Positions 1-5,495 of a stretch of DNA of 5,495 nucleotides are shown in pieces (within the stretch, counting starts at the first letter, position 1; the number at the start of each line of letters is the position of its first letter). Position numbers and translations under genes: made by a program. The stretch is taken from NCBI GenBank assembly GCA_014384545.1, contig JACNFQ010000096.1:1-5495 (forward strand), written 5' to 3'. Below the pieces are notes generated by a model. The model had not been told where the DNA came from, did not search any database, and saw only the letters and a list, made by a program, of their open reading frames with translations. The stretch comes from a bacterium (GTDB lineage: Bacteria > UBP7 > UBA6624).

Positions 1-2670
1 CTCCCACCGGGACACCCAATGGTGACAGGACAACAAACCGTTGACTTTGATCTCTGTAATGTGGAATATAGTGATGTTGCGATTTGCTGGGGAATGAACT
101 TCATTTCCACCAAAATGCCCGATGCCCACTTCCTTACCGAAGCACGGATGAAAGGGACAAAAGTGATCGTCATCTCTACCGATTACAACTCCACCTGTAG
201 TAAGGCTGATGAAGTTGTCATCATTCGCCCTGGTACCGACCCCGCTTTGGCTTTAGGTGTAGCCAGAGAGATTATTGACGAAAAACTCTATGACGAAGAG
301 TTCGTCAAAGGGTGGACCGATCTCCCCTTCCTTATTCGGATGGATACGAACGAACTTCTCCGAGCCAAGGATCTCTTCCCACGATACAAGAATAAGACAC
401 TCACGAATACGCGCATCTTGGAAAAGGGCGAGAAAGTTGCTCCTTTTGCTACGAACGTTGGAGGGCCTACCATCTCCAAAGAACAACGGGAAGCATGGGG
501 GGATTTCGTCGTTTGGAACGAGCATTCCAACGAAGCTGTTGCTGTAAGTAGAGATGAGCTGGGTATCCACGCTCCCCGTGGCGTTGACCCCGCCTTAGAA
601 GGGAGTTTCACAGTAAGAATCAAAGGGAAACGCGTCCAAGTTCGCCCCGTCTTTGACCTCGTTGCACAACATCTCCGAGATACTTGGAGTTTGGAGAATG
701 TAGAGAAAGTGACCTGGGCACCACAAAGTGCTGTAAAGAGTTTGGCTAGGACAACCGCTGCTAACCCAGAAAAGACGCTCTTTATCGTTGGAATGGGACC
801 GAATCAAATGTTCAATGCTGACCAAAAGGACCGATCGATTTTCTTGGTCGCTGCCCTGACTAAGAATGTCGGTTTCTTCGGTGGAAATGTAGGGAGTTAT
901 GCGGGCAACTACCGCGCCGCTTACTTCAACGGTATGCCAAAGTATATCGCAGAGAACCCTTTTGATATTGAGATGGATAGCAAGAAAGATCCCCGTGTCA
1001 AGCCCTATTTTAAGATGCAATCTGCTCACTTTTATACCCATGGCGATGGACCCCTTGACATTCATGGCAAGGTCTACAACGGGAAAACCCATATGCCCCT
1101 TCCCACGAAGCTCTTTTGGTTCTCCGGCAGCAACTCTATTCTGGGGAATGCGAAGGGTCATTATGACGTGGTGATGAACCTCATCCGTCACCCCAATTAC
1201 CGAAGCGAGAAAGCGGGCAAGCGCATGATTGAAGCCCTCTTTGTCAACGAGTGGTGGTGGACCGCAAGCTGTGAATACGCAGATATCGTCTTTGGTGTAG
1301 ATAGTTGGGGGGAATACAAAGTACACGACATTACAAACTCATGTACGAACCCCTTTATGCAGGTTATGCCCCTGTCACCGATTGACAGGATTCATGATAC
1401 CCGTAGCGATACCGAAGTCTACTCTTTGGTTGCATCAGCACTTGCCAAAGCAACAGGCGATCAGCGCTTTGATGACTACTGGCATTTCATTCGAGAAAAC
1501 AAGGCAAAGACTTATATCCAGCGCATCCTTGACAACTGCAATATCACCAAAGGGTACCAAATTGATGACCTTCTAGAGAAAGCCGAACAGGGCATCCCCG
1601 TCATGATGATGGGTCGCACCTACCCCAAGTTTATTGGTTACGAACAGAGTAACGAAAGCAAGCCTTGGTACAACCGCACTGGTCGCTTGGAGTTCTTTAG
1701 AGACGAGCCCGAGTTTACTATGCATGGAGAGAATATACCTCTCCACCGAGAACCGATTGATGCGACCTTCCATGAACCCAATGTCATCGTTGCAGAGCCT
1801 CACCCCTGCATCCAACCGCAAACACCAGAAGATTTTGGGTTTTCCAGGGATGACCTTTCGGGGGAAGTCCGCCAAGTGAGGAATGTGATCAAAACACCTG
1901 CCGAGTTGGTAAAGACGGAACACCCCCTCATGAAAGATGGGTTTACCCATCAATACCTTACCCCCAAGTATCGACACAGTGTCCATACTCTCTTTGTTGA
2001 TATTGATGTTCTTTCTGTTTGGTGGGCTGGCTTTGGTGATTTCTATCGCCGTGACAAGCGGTCACCTTGGGTTGGGGAGGCTTATATCGATCTCAACCCT
2101 AAAGATGCCCAAGATCTGGGGTTCAATGATGGTGACTACATCTGGCTAGATGCTGACCCCGAGGATCGACCCTTCAAGGGTTGGGAGGACCGGCCCAAGG
2201 AATACAAAGTAGCCCGAGCTATGATGCGCGTTCGCCACTATCCAGGCACCCCACAAGGAGTGGGTAGAACTTGGTTCCATTTCTTGGGCGCATCCTTTGG
2301 TTCGGTAGAAGGACAGAAGAATAGACCAGATGGATTGGCAAAGAATAGCAAAACCTCTTACCAAGCGATGTACCGGTTTGGTAGCCACCAAAGTGCAACC
2401 AGATCTTGGCTTCGTCCCACACTCCTAACAGATACCCTGACTAGGAAGAACCTAATGGGACAAGGTATCGGACAGGGCTTTGTCCCTGATGTCCATTGTG
2501 CCAATGGTGCCCCTCGAGAATCCTTTGTCAAGTTGGTCAAGGCTGAAGATGGTGGAATGGGAGGCTCTGGGAAATGGTCGCTGGTAGACCGTGGGGTCCG
2601 ACCAGGAACAGAGAGTGATGTGATGAAGAAGTACATCGCTGGCGATTTCATTACGGTGAGGGAGGGCTAA
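1..2670 (+). CDS. nxrA: Molybdopterin oxidoreductase alpha subunit, NXR/nitrate reductase-like (5' partial)
   Basis: Catalytic subunit of a type II DMSO reductase-family enzyme; it would carry Mo-bisMGD and one Fe-S cluster. The frame is open from base 1, which encodes LPPGHP just before the Met at 19, so the gene begins upstream and 889 residues are visible. In NarG/NxrA an LPPxxP segment directly follows the motif with the Mo-binding aspartate, so that residue, the N-terminal cluster motif and any Tat signal lie outside. Residues counted from base 1: PDAHFLTEAR at 40-49, a GTDPALALG cofactor-binding segment near 78-86, NEWWWTASCEYADIVFG near 416-432, DADPEDRPFKGW near 717-728, GSHQSATRSWLRPTL near 794-808 and GAPRESFVK near 836-844. 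The last three closely resemble the NxrA C-terminus as I remember it. A full length near 1,100-1,150 residues is inferred, above the roughly 900-980 of selenate or ethylbenzene enzymes. The symbol is provisional; nitrate reductase is equally possible. Confidence 0.9.
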   Translation, partial: LPPGHPMVTGQQTVDFDLCNVEYSDVAICWGMNFISTKMPDAHFLTEARMKGTKVIVISTDYNSTCSKADEVVIIRPGTDPALALGVAREIIDEKLYDEEFVKGWTDLPFLIRMDTNELLRAKDLFPRYKNKTLTNTRILEKGEKVAPFATNVGGPTISKEQREAWGDFVVWNEHSNEAVAVSRDELGIHAPRGVDPALEGSFTVRIKGKRVQVRPVFDLVAQHLRDTWSLENVEKVTWAPQSAVKSLARTTAANPEKTLFIVGMGPNQMFNADQKDRSIFLVAALTKNVGFFGGNVGSYAGNYRAAYFNGMPKYIAENPFDIEMDSKKDPRVKPYFKMQSAHFYTHGDGPLDIHGKVYNGKTHMPLPTKLFWFSGSNSILGNAKGHYDVVMNLIRHPNYRSEKAGKRMIEALFVNEWWWTASCEYADIVFGVDSWGEYKVHDITNSCTNPFMQVMPLSPIDRIHDTRSDTEVYSLVASALAKATGDQRFDDYWHFIRENKAKTYIQRILDNCNITKGYQIDDLLEKAEQGIPVMMMGRTYPKFIGYEQSNESKPWYNRTGRLEFFRDEPEFTMHGENIPLHREPIDATFHEPNVIVAEPHPCIQPQTPEDFGFSRDDLSGEVRQVRNVIKTPAELVKTEHPLMKDGFTHQYLTPKYRHSVHTLFVDIDVLSVWWAGFGDFYRRDKRSPWVGEAYIDLNPKDAQDLGFNDGDYIWLDADPEDRPFKGWEDRPKEYKVARAMMRVRHYPGTPQGVGRTWFHFLGASFGSVEGQKNRPDGLAKNSKTSYQAMYRFGSHQSATRSWLRPTLLTDTLTRKNLMGQGIGQGFVPDVHCANGAPRESFVKLVKAEDGGMGGSGKWSLVDRGVRPGTESDVMKKYIAGDFITVREG
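2661..2666 (+). promoter_or_regulatory. Ribosome binding site of the beta subunit gene
   Basis: GGAGGG lies inside the last codons of alpha, 5 bases before the beta ATG at 2672. Only one base separates the alpha stop (2668-2670) from this ATG. Translation of the two subunits is therefore probably coupled, which fits their 1:1 assembly. Confidence 0.75.
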
Positions 2671-2671
2671 T

Positions 2672-3811
2672 ATGTCAAAAGTATTCAACTGGCAGTTGGG
2701 ACGGGAGATGGACTATCCCCGAGAAGTTACTTCCCCACAAAAACAGATTGGGTGGATTTTTGATACGAACAAATGTATCGCTTGCCAAACATGTTCTATC
2801 GCCTGCAAGATGACTTGGACCTCTGGTCGGGGTCAGGAAAGCATGTTCTGGAACAATGTAGAAACGAAGCCTTACGGTAGCTACCCCACAGCGTGGGACT
2901 TGGAAGTGATGAAGAAGATTGGTCCTGGCTCTTGGGAAGAGGGTGTCTATGATGGTCAGACGGTTTTTGAAGCTGCTGATGGTCGCAAGGAAAAAGTTGC
3001 AGGCGTTCTCCCCTCTGATGAGGATTGGGCACACCCCAATCACGGAGAGGATGAGATTGCCGGTGGCACGATGCCACAAGGGATGCATATCAACGAGGAG
3101 ACCCACCCCCTTTGGTTTTTCTACCTACCCCGTATCTGTAACCATTGTTCCTACCCAGCCTGTTTGGGCTCTTGCCCCCGAAATGCAATCTATAAGAGAC
3201 CAGAGGATGGAGTCGTCCTTATTGACCAAAGCAGGTGCAGGGGTTATAGAGAATGTGTCAAAGCATGCCCTTACGGAAAAACGATGTTCCGCCCTAACCA
3301 TGAAGTCTCTGAAAAGTGCATTGCGTGCTATCCCAAACTAGAAAAAGGGCTACAAACACAATGTGTGGAACAGTGTATTGGAAAGATTCGTGGGCAGGGT
3401 TGGATCTCTAACCCTAAAGAGGGTGTTCGAGAAGATCACCCCATTGATTACCTCGTTCACATAAAGAAAATGGCCCTCCCCCTTTATCCCCAGTTCGGCA
3501 CCCAACCCAATGTCTTCTATATCCCACCCACACATGTTCCTGCTGACTATCTTGCTCAGATGTTCGGTCCAGGTGTCGCACACGCTCAAGAAGCGTACCG
3601 CACCATCAAGAAGGATGAGAAACTTGCGGGACTTATTCAACTCTTTGGCAGTACGCCTTTCATCTTAGAACGATTTGATGTAAGAAACGGTATCGCTAAG
3701 GGGTTTGACAAGGATGGAACACTCGTTGCCGAAGTACCAGTAACCGAACCCACAGTCGTTCGGGATCATTACGACAAGAAGCGGGATGTCTACCGCTTGG
3801 ATGTCACCTAA
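2672..3811 (+). CDS. nxrB: Iron-sulfur beta subunit, NxrB/NarH-like, four Fe-S clusters
   Basis: Electron-transfer subunit of 379 residues that should pair with alpha and pass electrons through four Fe-S clusters. Four cysteine groups are visible: C35-C38-C41-C45; C156-C159-C164-C168; C189-C195-C199; and C216-C219-C231-C235. The third group has Tyr192 (CRGYREC) where a ferredoxin would have a cysteine, as expected for the [3Fe-4S] cluster of type II beta subunits. WNNVETKPYG (60-69), RICNHC (154-159), KRPEDGVVLIDQ (175-186), SEKCIACYP (213-221) and MFGPGV (297-302) match NxrB as I recall it. No signal peptide is present, so it is probably exported folded together with alpha. It is about 50 residues shorter than Nitrospira NxrB, mostly between the first two cysteine groups. 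It starts one base after alpha with a good ribosome binding site. NarH-type nitrate reductase beta is the main alternative. Confidence 0.93.
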   Translation: MSKVFNWQLGREMDYPREVTSPQKQIGWIFDTNKCIACQTCSIACKMTWTSGRGQESMFWNNVETKPYGSYPTAWDLEVMKKIGPGSWEEGVYDGQTVFEAADGRKEKVAGVLPSDEDWAHPNHGEDEIAGGTMPQGMHINEETHPLWFFYLPRICNHCSYPACLGSCPRNAIYKRPEDGVVLIDQSRCRGYRECVKACPYGKTMFRPNHEVSEKCIACYPKLEKGLQTQCVEQCIGKIRGQGWISNPKEGVREDHPIDYLVHIKKMALPLYPQFGTQPNVFYIPPTHVPADYLAQMFGPGVAHAQEAYRTIKKDEKLAGLIQLFGSTPFILERFDVRNGIAKGFDKDGTLVAEVPVTEPTVVRDHYDKKRDVYRLDVT

Positions 3812-3816
3812 AGGAG
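3811..3816 (+). promoter_or_regulatory. Ribosome binding site of the gamma subunit gene
   Basis: AAGGAG begins on the last base of the beta stop codon and sits 6 bases before the ATG at 3823. It is a near-consensus site and settles the gamma start. Confidence 0.8.
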
Positions 3817-3822
3817 ATTACC

Positions 3823-4650
3823 ATGTATACCAGAAAAAACTTCTCTCTTCTTCCCCTATCCTTACTTTTTTTCTTTTCGGCTGGAGTGCTCGGTGCAACG
3901 GAGAATCCCTGTGCACCACCCAACCCCACCGAAGTCGTTGCCGTTGCTGCCTCCGTAGCACCTCTCTCACCCGCCAATCCCCTCTGGGACGATGTGCCCT
4001 CTATGGAAATCACCCTCTTTGAACAACTCGTTACTCCTCCCGTTGGCGGAGGATCTACACCCACGATCCATGTACAAGCTATCCACGACGGCGAATGGGT
4101 CTCTTTCCGCCTTACTTGGTTAGATGATACAGAAAATGATAGTGTAGGTGTTGATACGTTCCGCGATACCGTTGCCGTGGGCTTTCCCATAGACCCTGCG
4201 GTTTTTCCATCTCCATTCATGGGTGATGCTACAAATGGCGTCTCTATTTGGCAATGGACCGCGAATAGTCAAGCCGATGCTGAAGGACGAGGCAAGTTTG
4301 ACGAGATGTACCCCAGCACAGAAGGTGTTTGGTATTTTCCCCAGGATGAGGATATCTCCAACCTCAATGAGGAATGGAGAGGGCATCTACCCGCTGACGC
4401 ATATATTGCTTATGGCTTTGGTACTTTAGAGCGCTCCTCCCAAGAAGGACTCACGGGGATGGGGCTATACGCTGAAGAGAGCTGGCGTGTCGTCATTCGG
4501 AATCGGCTTGACGGGGGAATGCTCCCCCTATCCCCCGAGGGTCTCTCTAAGATGATATTTGCTGTTTGGGATGGAGCTGAAAACGAGGTCAATGGAAGAA
4601 AATCTGTGACCCTCATGTGGACGCCATTCGTTCTTTCCCCCCTCTCATAG
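3823..4650 (+). CDS. Exported haem b-binding gamma subunit, ethylbenzene dehydrogenase gamma (EbdC/NxrC)-like
   Basis: A 275-residue periplasmic subunit that should bind one b-type haem and link the beta clusters to an external electron carrier. Residues 1-6 (MYTRKN) are basic and 7-24 hydrophobic, with a likely Sec cleavage after Gly24 or Ala25. The rest resembles the EbdC-type haem-binding beta-sandwich: a VQAIHDGEWVSFRLTW strand pair (84-99), PFMGDATNGVSIWQW (131-145), a SWRVVIRNRL strand (220-229), FAVWDG (246-251) and NGRKSVTLMW (257-266). In EbdC the haem ligands are a Met and a Lys; Met133 and Lys260 are the best candidates here, which is inference. No CxxCH motif occurs, so it is not a c-type cytochrome, and there is no second membrane segment. 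It begins 11 bases after beta, and its 3' end overlaps the chaperone gene. Comparable subunits are the gamma subunits of selenate, chlorate and DMS enzymes and NxrC. Confidence 0.85.
   Translation: MYTRKNFSLLPLSLLFFFSAGVLGATENPCAPPNPTEVVAVAASVAPLSPANPLWDDVPSMEITLFEQLVTPPVGGGSTPTIHVQAIHDGEWVSFRLTWLDDTENDSVGVDTFRDTVAVGFPIDPAVFPSPFMGDATNGVSIWQWTANSQADAEGRGKFDEMYPSTEGVWYFPQDEDISNLNEEWRGHLPADAYIAYGFGTLERSSQEGLTGMGLYAEESWRVVIRNRLDGGMLPLSPEGLSKMIFAVWDGAENEVNGRKSVTLMWTPFVLSPLS
4512..4537 (+). repeat. G/C-tract inverted repeats inside the gamma gene
   Basis: CGGGGGA at 4512-4518 can pair with TCCCCCG at 4531-4537 (7 bp, 12-base loop). Alternatively, GGGGGA at 4513-4518 pairs with TCCCCC at 4523-4528 (6 bp, 4-base loop). 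The tracts encode part of DGGMLPLSPEG, so the structure may be incidental. There is no following T-run, so it is not a standard terminator. Confidence 0.4.
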
Positions 4651-5324
4651 AATCCTCTGTGCACCATTCACCCCTTCCTAGAGCTGTTCTCTATCACAGC
4701 TTATCCCTACTCTTTGCGCATCCAGGAAAGGAAGAGATGAAGAGCATCTCAACTTACCTGTCAGTCATGGAAACCGCCTTCAATGAGGCCAGTGCGCCAC
4801 AGACCCTTTTGGAGCAGATAGACGCCCTAAAGAAGGTCTTGCCTACTTCAGATATGGAGTCTTTGCTGGAGGGGTACTCTAGAGCGTTTGAGCCAAGCGG
4901 GGGACTACTGGCGCCTCCCACAGAGACTTTCCATACCTCCACCACGCCCGGGCATGCCATTACAAGACATGTGGAAGTAGCAGATGTTGCTGGCTTCTAT
5001 AAGGCATTTGGTGTGAAAGTTGCCGAGGGGTCCGAGCGCCCCGACCACATCACCGCCGAACTTGAGTTTCTCCAGTTGCTTGCCCTCAAAGAGGCACAGG
5101 CTCTGGAGGATGAGGGGGGGGAAGAAAACGCTTCTATTTGCCTCAACGCAACGCGTTCATTCCTGAAAGATCACCTATTACTGTGGGTTGTTCCTTTTGC
5201 TGAGAAACTGGAGAATCCTGCCGTTCATCCCTTTTATCAAGCCTTGGGTCAACTCCTAAGTGATTTCGTCCTTTGGGATGCTTCTGTTCTTGGCATTGGA
5301 GACGCCACACCACAAACGGGCTAG
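4617..5324 (+). CDS. TorD-family molybdoenzyme maturation chaperone (delta subunit)
   Basis: Cytoplasmic chaperone of 235 residues, the usual size for TorD/DmsD/NarJ-like proteins. These bind apo-alpha and any Tat signal until the Mo cofactor is inserted, and they are not part of the mature enzyme. Family signs are RAVLYHSLSLLFAHP (22-36), LLEGYSRAF (83-91), APPTETF (99-105), ERPDHITAELEFLQLLALKEAQA (140-162), a FLKDHLLLWVVPF helix (182-194) and FYQALGQLL (206-214). The protein looks all-helical and has no signal peptide. The start is uncertain. GTG at 4617 overlaps gamma by 34 bases; GTG at 4659 lies 8 bases after the gamma stop and would shorten the protein by 14 residues. Neither has a strong ribosome binding site, so translation is probably coupled to gamma. 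The A-B-gamma-chaperone order matches ebdABCD, whereas ser, clr and ddh operons place the chaperone before gamma. Confidence 0.88.
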   Translation: MDAIRSFPPLIESSVHHSPLPRAVLYHSLSLLFAHPGKEEMKSISTYLSVMETAFNEASAPQTLLEQIDALKKVLPTSDMESLLEGYSRAFEPSGGLLAPPTETFHTSTTPGHAITRHVEVADVAGFYKAFGVKVAEGSERPDHITAELEFLQLLALKEAQALEDEGGEENASICLNATRSFLKDHLLLWVVPFAEKLENPAVHPFYQALGQLLSDFVLWDASVLGIGDATPQTG

Positions 5325-5402: not shown

Positions 5403-5420
5403 TGAGATAAATAAATCTCA
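5403..5420 (+). repeat. Inverted repeat TGAGAT-AAATAA-ATCTCA
   Basis: TGAGAT (5403-5408) and ATCTCA (5415-5420) form a perfect 6-bp inverted repeat around an A/T-only 6-base loop, 31 bases before the next ATG. Its TGAGA/TCTCA core is the same as in the upstream inverted repeat but with the arms in opposite order. It could be an operator or a 5'-leader hairpin. Confidence 0.5.
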
Positions 5421-5437
5421 GTTTGGTTCCCTTTACT

Positions 5438-5444
5438 AGGAAGG
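5438..5444 (+). promoter_or_regulatory. Ribosome binding site of the downstream gene
   Basis: AGGAAGG lies 7 bases before the ATG at 5452. It supports this short terminal frame as the start of a real gene. Confidence 0.7.
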
Positions 5445-5451
5445 TTGATCG

Positions 5452-5495
5452 ATGAAAACATTCCACTTGCTTCTCTTATCCGTCGTTGCACCCTT
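5452..5495 (+). CDS. Start of a putative exported protein (3' partial)
   Basis: Only 14 full codons are visible: MKTFHLLLLSVVAP. A lysine at position 2 followed by a run of hydrophobic residues (FHLLLLSVVA) looks like the start of a Sec signal peptide, so the product is probably periplasmic or outer-membrane. A good ribosome binding site precedes the ATG, and the spacing fits a separate transcription unit or a loosely attached operon member. Given the neighbours, a periplasmic electron carrier such as a cytochrome c, or another accessory subunit, is plausible. Nothing in the visible residues identifies it. Confidence 0.6.
   Translation, partial: MKTFHLLLLSVVAP

Follow-up and report, generated by a model that had tools for sequence, protein, structure and literature searches.

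A periplasmic-type molybdoenzyme operon from the sister clade of nitrite oxidoreductases adjoins an iodate reductase gene cluster

Introduction

Periplasmic nitrite oxidoreductases (NXR) of Nitrospira, Nitrospina and anammox bacteria, represented by the Kuenenia structure 7b04, share a plan of alpha, beta and EB_dh-type gamma subunits together with a TorD-type chaperone. The haem b of the gamma subunit is ligated by Met and Lys, the FS0 cluster is held by three Cys and one Asp, and the Kuenenia enzyme is active in both directions in vitro (PMC8387239). A clade sister to NXR has also been described; it holds the NXR of Ca. Nitrotoga, the periplasmic nitrate reductase of Hydrogenobacter and putative archaeal and bacterial NarG proteins, and it includes known nitrate reducers (PMC6050957).

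Iodate reductases are recognised by synteny with two peroxidases (PMC8692401, PMC10989891), and the electrons of iodate reducers come from cytochrome c (PMC8692401). In oxygen-deficient zones nitrite is apparently oxidised anaerobically, and iodate has been proposed as one of the oxidants; part of the samples studied gave evidence against this role, and a gene system with which to test it has been lacking (PMC8114937, PMC11373643).

Here we analyse a window that comprises the entire 5,495-bp contig C28 of a 1.39-Mb genome bin (107 contigs, 79% complete). Its NXR-like enzyme is, as judged from sequence, a further member of the already described sister clade. What is new is the junction of this operon with an iodate reductase (idr) cluster, for which, as far as the literature shows, we found no description in the papers searched.

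Results

The window carries four genes on the + strand of C28 that overlap or nearly touch one another, with family matches to Molybdopterin, Fer4_11, EB_dh and Nitrate_red_del, respectively. The first encodes the NXR-like catalytic subunit alpha (Mo-bisPGD type; 1..2670), which was assigned from its open reading frame, family, structure matches and trees; its 889 residues contain no internal stop and the gene is open at the 5' contig end. The Fe-S subunit beta with four clusters (2672..3811) and the gamma subunit, an EB_dh haem-b domain protein with an export signal (3823..4650), were each assigned from open reading frame, family, structure match and alignment. A TorD/NarJ-type assembly chaperone, recognised by family, follows (4617..5324); its start codon is uncertain, and the listed start overlaps gamma. 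All four proteins also matched the type-II DMSO reductase set TIGR03479/78/77/82, with scores under its cut-offs. A weak terminator-like site was seen inside the chaperone gene.

Contamination was considered as the source of C28 and of C40, the contig that continues it, and was rejected because their tetranucleotide profiles agreed with those of other host contigs (r ~0.90, compared with <0.30 for the foreign loci examined). The host itself is isolated and belongs to a scarcely sampled lineage: its rpoB is 39-47% identical to that of every named genome compared, roughly equidistantly, alpha and IdrA were absent from two genomes of the same family, and its next kin share only the domain.

Among solved structures, alpha was best matched by Kuenenia NxrA (7b04_B; 614 bits over residues 3-886), the one match to cover its full length; the next, PcrA, scored 158 bits and covered residues 19-312 only, and EbdA scored 123 bits. 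Beta matched 7b04_A with 361 bits versus 218 for the next structure, and gamma matched 7b04_C with 80 bits versus 50 for EbdC. In two maximum-likelihood trees of 62 and 49 rows, where canonical NXR rows were marked by their match to 7b04_B (2405 bits for the anammox row, 1587 bits for the Nitrospira row), alpha lay outside canonical NXR and within its sister clade, with a support of 100 (SH-aLRT) in one tree and of 100/100 in the other, in which a row with a wrong ORF and a very long branch (L211) is disregarded. Both trees set NXR and the sister clade apart from Haloferax pNarG and from a Pcr-type, chlorite-dismutase-linked enzyme, and one tree set them apart from E. coli NarZ and Ideonella ClrA as well. 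The original prediction of an NXR-like enzyme is thus borne out by the structure matches and the sister position, and alpha was found in none of the NarG/pNar, chlorate or perchlorate clades; the EbdA score, far below the 614 bits of NxrA, likewise speaks against an ethylbenzene-type placement, the references compared for this wider group being ClrA, a Pcr-type enzyme, PcrA and EbdA. Its motifs, all of which are found in the translations of alpha and beta, had been ascribed to the NXR branch; a place inside NXR itself was not supported, as alpha belongs to the sister clade and beta lacks an insertion typical of NxrB.

This sister clade spans many phyla and haloarchaea, including Natronococcus. 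Of the genomes sampled, about 12 of 198 from Nitrospirota and about 25 of 294 from Planctomycetota carried members at 45-67% identity, although a few of the copies at 45% group with NXR in the tree; many canonical-type copies at 36-42% occurred in the same samples. The nearest kin of alpha, at 71-74% identity, come from Myxococcota and SAR324 metagenome-assembled genomes, and since the rpoB of the host is only ~39-44% identical to that of these genomes, alpha has evidently moved by horizontal transfer. The beta tree supported the nearest kin of the window and did not resolve the sister clade as a single group. We infer that this clade corresponds to the Nitrotoga/Hydrogenobacter clade of PMC6050957, whose Ca. 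Nitrotoga and Hydrogenobacter sequences lie outside our tree samples: both are sister to NXR, occur in bacteria and archaea, and combine a Tat-type alpha and soluble gamma with a beta that has Cys at the Asp45 position and no insertion. They differ in the Mo motif, which ends in QM in Nitrotoga versus QT in the relatives of the window (Y-4x-D-11x-QT).

C28 starts one codon past the expected position of the Mo-ligand Asp, and the FS0 region, this Asp and the Tat signal of alpha would fall upstream of its start. Recovery of this upstream part, which the original prediction had proposed, was attempted without success, as no contig end in the genome bin overlaps the window start. Every aligned relative with an intact N-terminus carries the Mo-ligand Asp (HTDLPPGHP in the sister clade) as well as the FS0 motif and the Asn that contacts the substrate (substrate Asn); these Mo Asp and substrate Asn residues are shared with periplasmic NXR. 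An RR-type Tat signal opens nearly all relatives having an intact start, and alpha of this host is most likely periplasmic, as had been predicted. The FS0 motif of most of the nearest relatives has the form CxxNCxxxC (CxxN-C-xxx-C), which probably provides four Cys ligands, in contrast to the 3Cys/1Asp arrangement of periplasmic NXR.

Alignment showed a complete set of Fe-S Cys residues in the window beta, with Cys where Nitrospira (N. defluvii) NxrB has Asp45. The ~8-residue insertion (GKDPL..) that is present in nearly all canonical-type betas is missing from this beta and from all sister-clade betas, and Ca. Nitrotoga NxrB likewise has Cys at the Asp45 position and lacks the 8-residue insertion (PMC6050957). 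In gamma, Met133 and Lys260 align with the conserved haem-ligand Met and Lys, and an N-terminal export signal was recognised by eye; together with the EB_dh domain this agrees with the predicted exported haem b subunit, here of the soluble type. The locus shares with periplasmic NXR the subunit plan, the Fe-S chain, the haem b Met/Lys pair and the C-terminal alpha motifs, but it is ~39% identical, has a shorter beta and shows no NXR-T or NXR-type gene cluster on C28. NarGHI and haloarchaeal pNar (Haloferax narBCGH type) have the type II alpha/beta in common with it, and pNar is likewise Tat-exported with an EB_dh gamma; both nevertheless occupy separate tree branches, and neither a NarI nor a NarC anchor is encoded on C28.

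The genome check for denitrification genes that had been suggested, which covered the host's metabolism in spots, revealed a NapA nitrate reductase, and the host also carries a caa3-type oxidase. These genes bear on the possibility of a genuine NXR function, in which nitrite would be oxidised in the periplasm and cytochrome c would hand the electrons on to the caa3-type oxidase and O2, leaving Idr as a separate or back-up acceptor. With a suitable oxidase at hand, NapA already serving nitrate reduction, and a clade that is sister to NXR and in which a nitrite oxidiser with the same beta traits, Ca. Nitrotoga, has been reported (PMC6050957), such a role is conceivable; we nonetheless hold it to be doubtful, because alpha lies outside the NXR clade proper and its own clade occurs in many lineages, several of them reported nitrate reducers (PMC6050957).

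At its end, C28 overlaps C40 in dovetail fashion (5418..5495 with C40 bases 1-77; 97% identity over 77 bases), and it is by this contig-end overlap that the two are joined. Across the join, 127 bp past the NXR-like operon, an idrP-idrP-idrB-idrA cluster begins, the first codons of idrP (MKTFHLLLLSVVAP; di-haem cytochrome c peroxidase) lying on the + strand of the window from the ATG at 5452 to 5495 and the remainder on C40. The original prediction had overlooked this cluster, whose beginning occupies the final 44 bases of the window. Neither a promoter nor a terminator was matched in the 127-bp gap between chaperone and idrP, a result without weight either way. The lack of a membrane anchor gene noted earlier holds for C28; the next genes, on C40, encode a pair of di-haem peroxidases, a Rieske protein of the Tat type (IdrB) and an AioA-like, IdrA-type molybdoenzyme, which has no signal and whose gene is cut by the contig end. 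With idrA-idrB adjoining two di-haem peroxidases, C40 bears the published mark of iodate reductase. In trees its IdrA grouped with that of an Azonexus plasmid (56% identity), which has the identical CCP-CCP-Rieske-Mo order, and separately from the AioA of Thermus and NT-26 (28-30% identity). An arsenite oxidase was accordingly rejected on the IdrA-clade placement and the adjoining peroxidases. The known iodate reducers Denitromonas, Pseudomonas SCT and Ca. Methylomirabilis iodofontis (IdrABP1P2) show the same P-P-B-A order, Tat-type IdrB and signal-less IdrA, whereas the cluster on C40 differs in its direct join to an NXR-like operon. Viral and phage collections held no Idr relative, their annotated phage matches being NapA.

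IdrA was found in 5 of 290 phylum-spread genomes, this host included. A second direct junction was present in G1347, a genome unrelated to the host below domain level: on its contig L233, idrP-idrP-idrB-idrA (3083-8930) is followed on the same strand, after 42 bp between idrA and alpha, by NXR-like alpha-beta-gamma-chaperone (8973-15127), an order that is the reverse of that in the window. The G1347 alpha sits in another subclade of the tree than the window alpha. A third genome, G048, has idr and NXR-type genes ~30 kb apart on one contig, with an alpha of canonical NXR type; in G1444, idr adjoins a bd-like oxidase, cytochromes c and an EB_dh/cytochrome c fusion, and the idr contig of G1548 is too short to show neighbours. 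Among 28 other genomes with a sister-clade or canonical-type alpha, three had an IdrA-clade gene, and two of these three carriers fall among the five nearest relatives of the window alpha.

The neighbourhood might be a functionally meaningless outcome of island traffic, as alpha is horizontally mobile (71-74% identity to Myxococcota/SAR324 despite the distant rpoB) and Idr has been described as a mobile island (PMC8692401). Two independent direct junctions of opposite order among only five IdrA genomes of 290, and a third genome with both gene sets on one contig, make chance the least probable of the explanations we weighed, and the pairing is probably not accidental. Moreover, the opposite order of the two junctions and the discordant relationships of alpha and IdrA suggest repeated assembly of the pair, and not one inherited island; the sample is small, and shared habitats may have contributed to the recurrence.

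The same junctions bear on a role of the NXR-like enzyme within the Idr pathway, acting on an intermediate of iodate reduction or on another halogen oxyanion such as chlorate. Two unrelated genomes show it next to idr, in opposite orders, and nitrate and perchlorate reductases reportedly reduce iodate in vitro (PMC8692401). We regard such a role as unlikely, given that most sampled carriers of the clade lack IdrA, the clade as a whole conserves the Asp and Asn of the nitrate/nitrite type, trees separate alpha from the reductases for chlorate and perchlorate, and Idr islands elsewhere do without an NXR-like enzyme (PMC8692401; Azonexus).

Discussion

Nitrate/nitrite is our best guess for the substrate of the clade. 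The direction of the reaction, left undecided by the original prediction, indeed cannot be read from sequence, and the neighbours of clade members, often a Rieske/cytochrome b unit with a multihaem c directly upstream and in some cases a bd-like oxidase with cytochrome c genes, make both modes possible.

We consider it about an even bet that a Tat-exported, soluble, three-subunit periplasmic enzyme that interconverts nitrate and nitrite is joined here to idr, the two forming parallel terminal reductases. Electrons would run between the Mo-bisPGD of alpha, five Fe-S clusters, the haem b of gamma and a soluble c-type cytochrome, and the product of the fourth gene would serve as the insertion chaperone of the complex. 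Both oxyanion reductases would draw on one pool of quinol, bc complex and cytochrome c, a wiring suggested by the Rieske/cytochrome b and multihaem c genes directly upstream in clade members, and the NXR-like enzyme of this host would chiefly reduce nitrate when oxygen is low. Consistent with this, Kuenenia NXR is the top solved relative of all three subunits. Against it counts that NapA makes a second periplasmic nitrate reductase partly redundant, that the caa3-type oxidase would suit nitrite oxidation with O2, and that the join to Idr rests on the contig-end overlap.

The eight genes could alternatively act as one unit, in which the NXR-type enzyme would oxidise nitrite and cytochrome c would carry the electrons to the iodate reductase. 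Electron flow from nitrite to iodate is downhill (~+0.42 V vs +0.72 V; PMC8387239, PMC8692401). As a periplasmic reaction, NO2- + 1/3 IO3- -> NO3- + 1/3 I- would, however, move no charge or protons across the membrane and would be hard to sustain as the sole energy metabolism; parallel reductases are favoured on this ground, and we judge the circuit rather improbable. We thus favour parallel terminal reductases over nitrite oxidation with O2, and the latter over a nitrite-iodate circuit.

Should the nitrite-iodate unit be true, it would provide genes for a mechanism proposed in oxygen-deficient waters and hitherto without known genes. In either case, the repeated NXR-like/Idr link supplies defined genes from two genomes, together with a marker arrangement for which metagenomes and transcripts can be screened, so that the long-debated link between nitrogen and iodine becomes testable. 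As for the suggestion that the locus extends the range of NXR-like enzymes, the presence of such a gene in a new host has by itself ceased to be surprising, as its clade was already known with Nitrotoga and Hydrogenobacter (PMC6050957). Matches to 'nxrA' that come from the sister clade should accordingly be counted as nitrite oxidisers only where their context supports it.

The Fe-S site of alpha and related operons

At FS0, the Fe-S cluster site near the N-terminus of alpha, most of the nearest relatives of the window carry CxxNCxxxC (alpha N-termini of L014, L016, L017 and L019), whereas elsewhere the motif reads CxxNDxxxC. CxxNCxxxC probably constitutes a four-Cys site.

In another IdrA-bearing genome, an NXR-like alpha-beta-gamma-chaperone operon directly follows the iodate reductase cluster idrPPBA (L233, G1347:C24, 3083-15127), the reverse of the gene order at the window. 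In a third (G1444:C29, L234/L235), idrPPBA is followed by genes for a HEAT-repeat protein, a cytochrome c, a cytochrome bd-like oxidase subunit, a second cytochrome c and an EB_dh/cytochrome c fusion.

On a planctomycete contig (G410:C92, L174/L175), about 13 kb separates an NXR alpha of the canonical type from one of the sister clade, and both types are present in several other planctomycetes.

Plasmid 2 of the cultured haloarchaeon Natronococcus occultus carries alpha, beta and chaperone genes (L155, 14539-18896), with no gamma detected alongside them. This alpha may be frameshifted: the gene table of the plasmid leaves it unannotated, and the N-terminal FS0 part is absent from its open frame. 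A haloarchaeal NXR/EBDH-like operon on a Halobaculum plasmid (L156, 4326-10597) branches just outside NXR plus the sister clade in the alpha tree.

Other molybdoenzymes of the host

The host NapA (L040, G000:C70) scores above the NCBIfam cut-off. Its cluster (3528-9010), comprising NapA, cytochrome b, a multihaem c protein and a NapB/c3-like protein, is an unusual nap arrangement and includes a bc-type cytochrome b. The host also encodes a further exported, Phs/Psr/Arr-like molybdoenzyme, alongside genes for Fe-S, NrfD-type and chaperone proteins (L039, G000:C74, 2604-8233).
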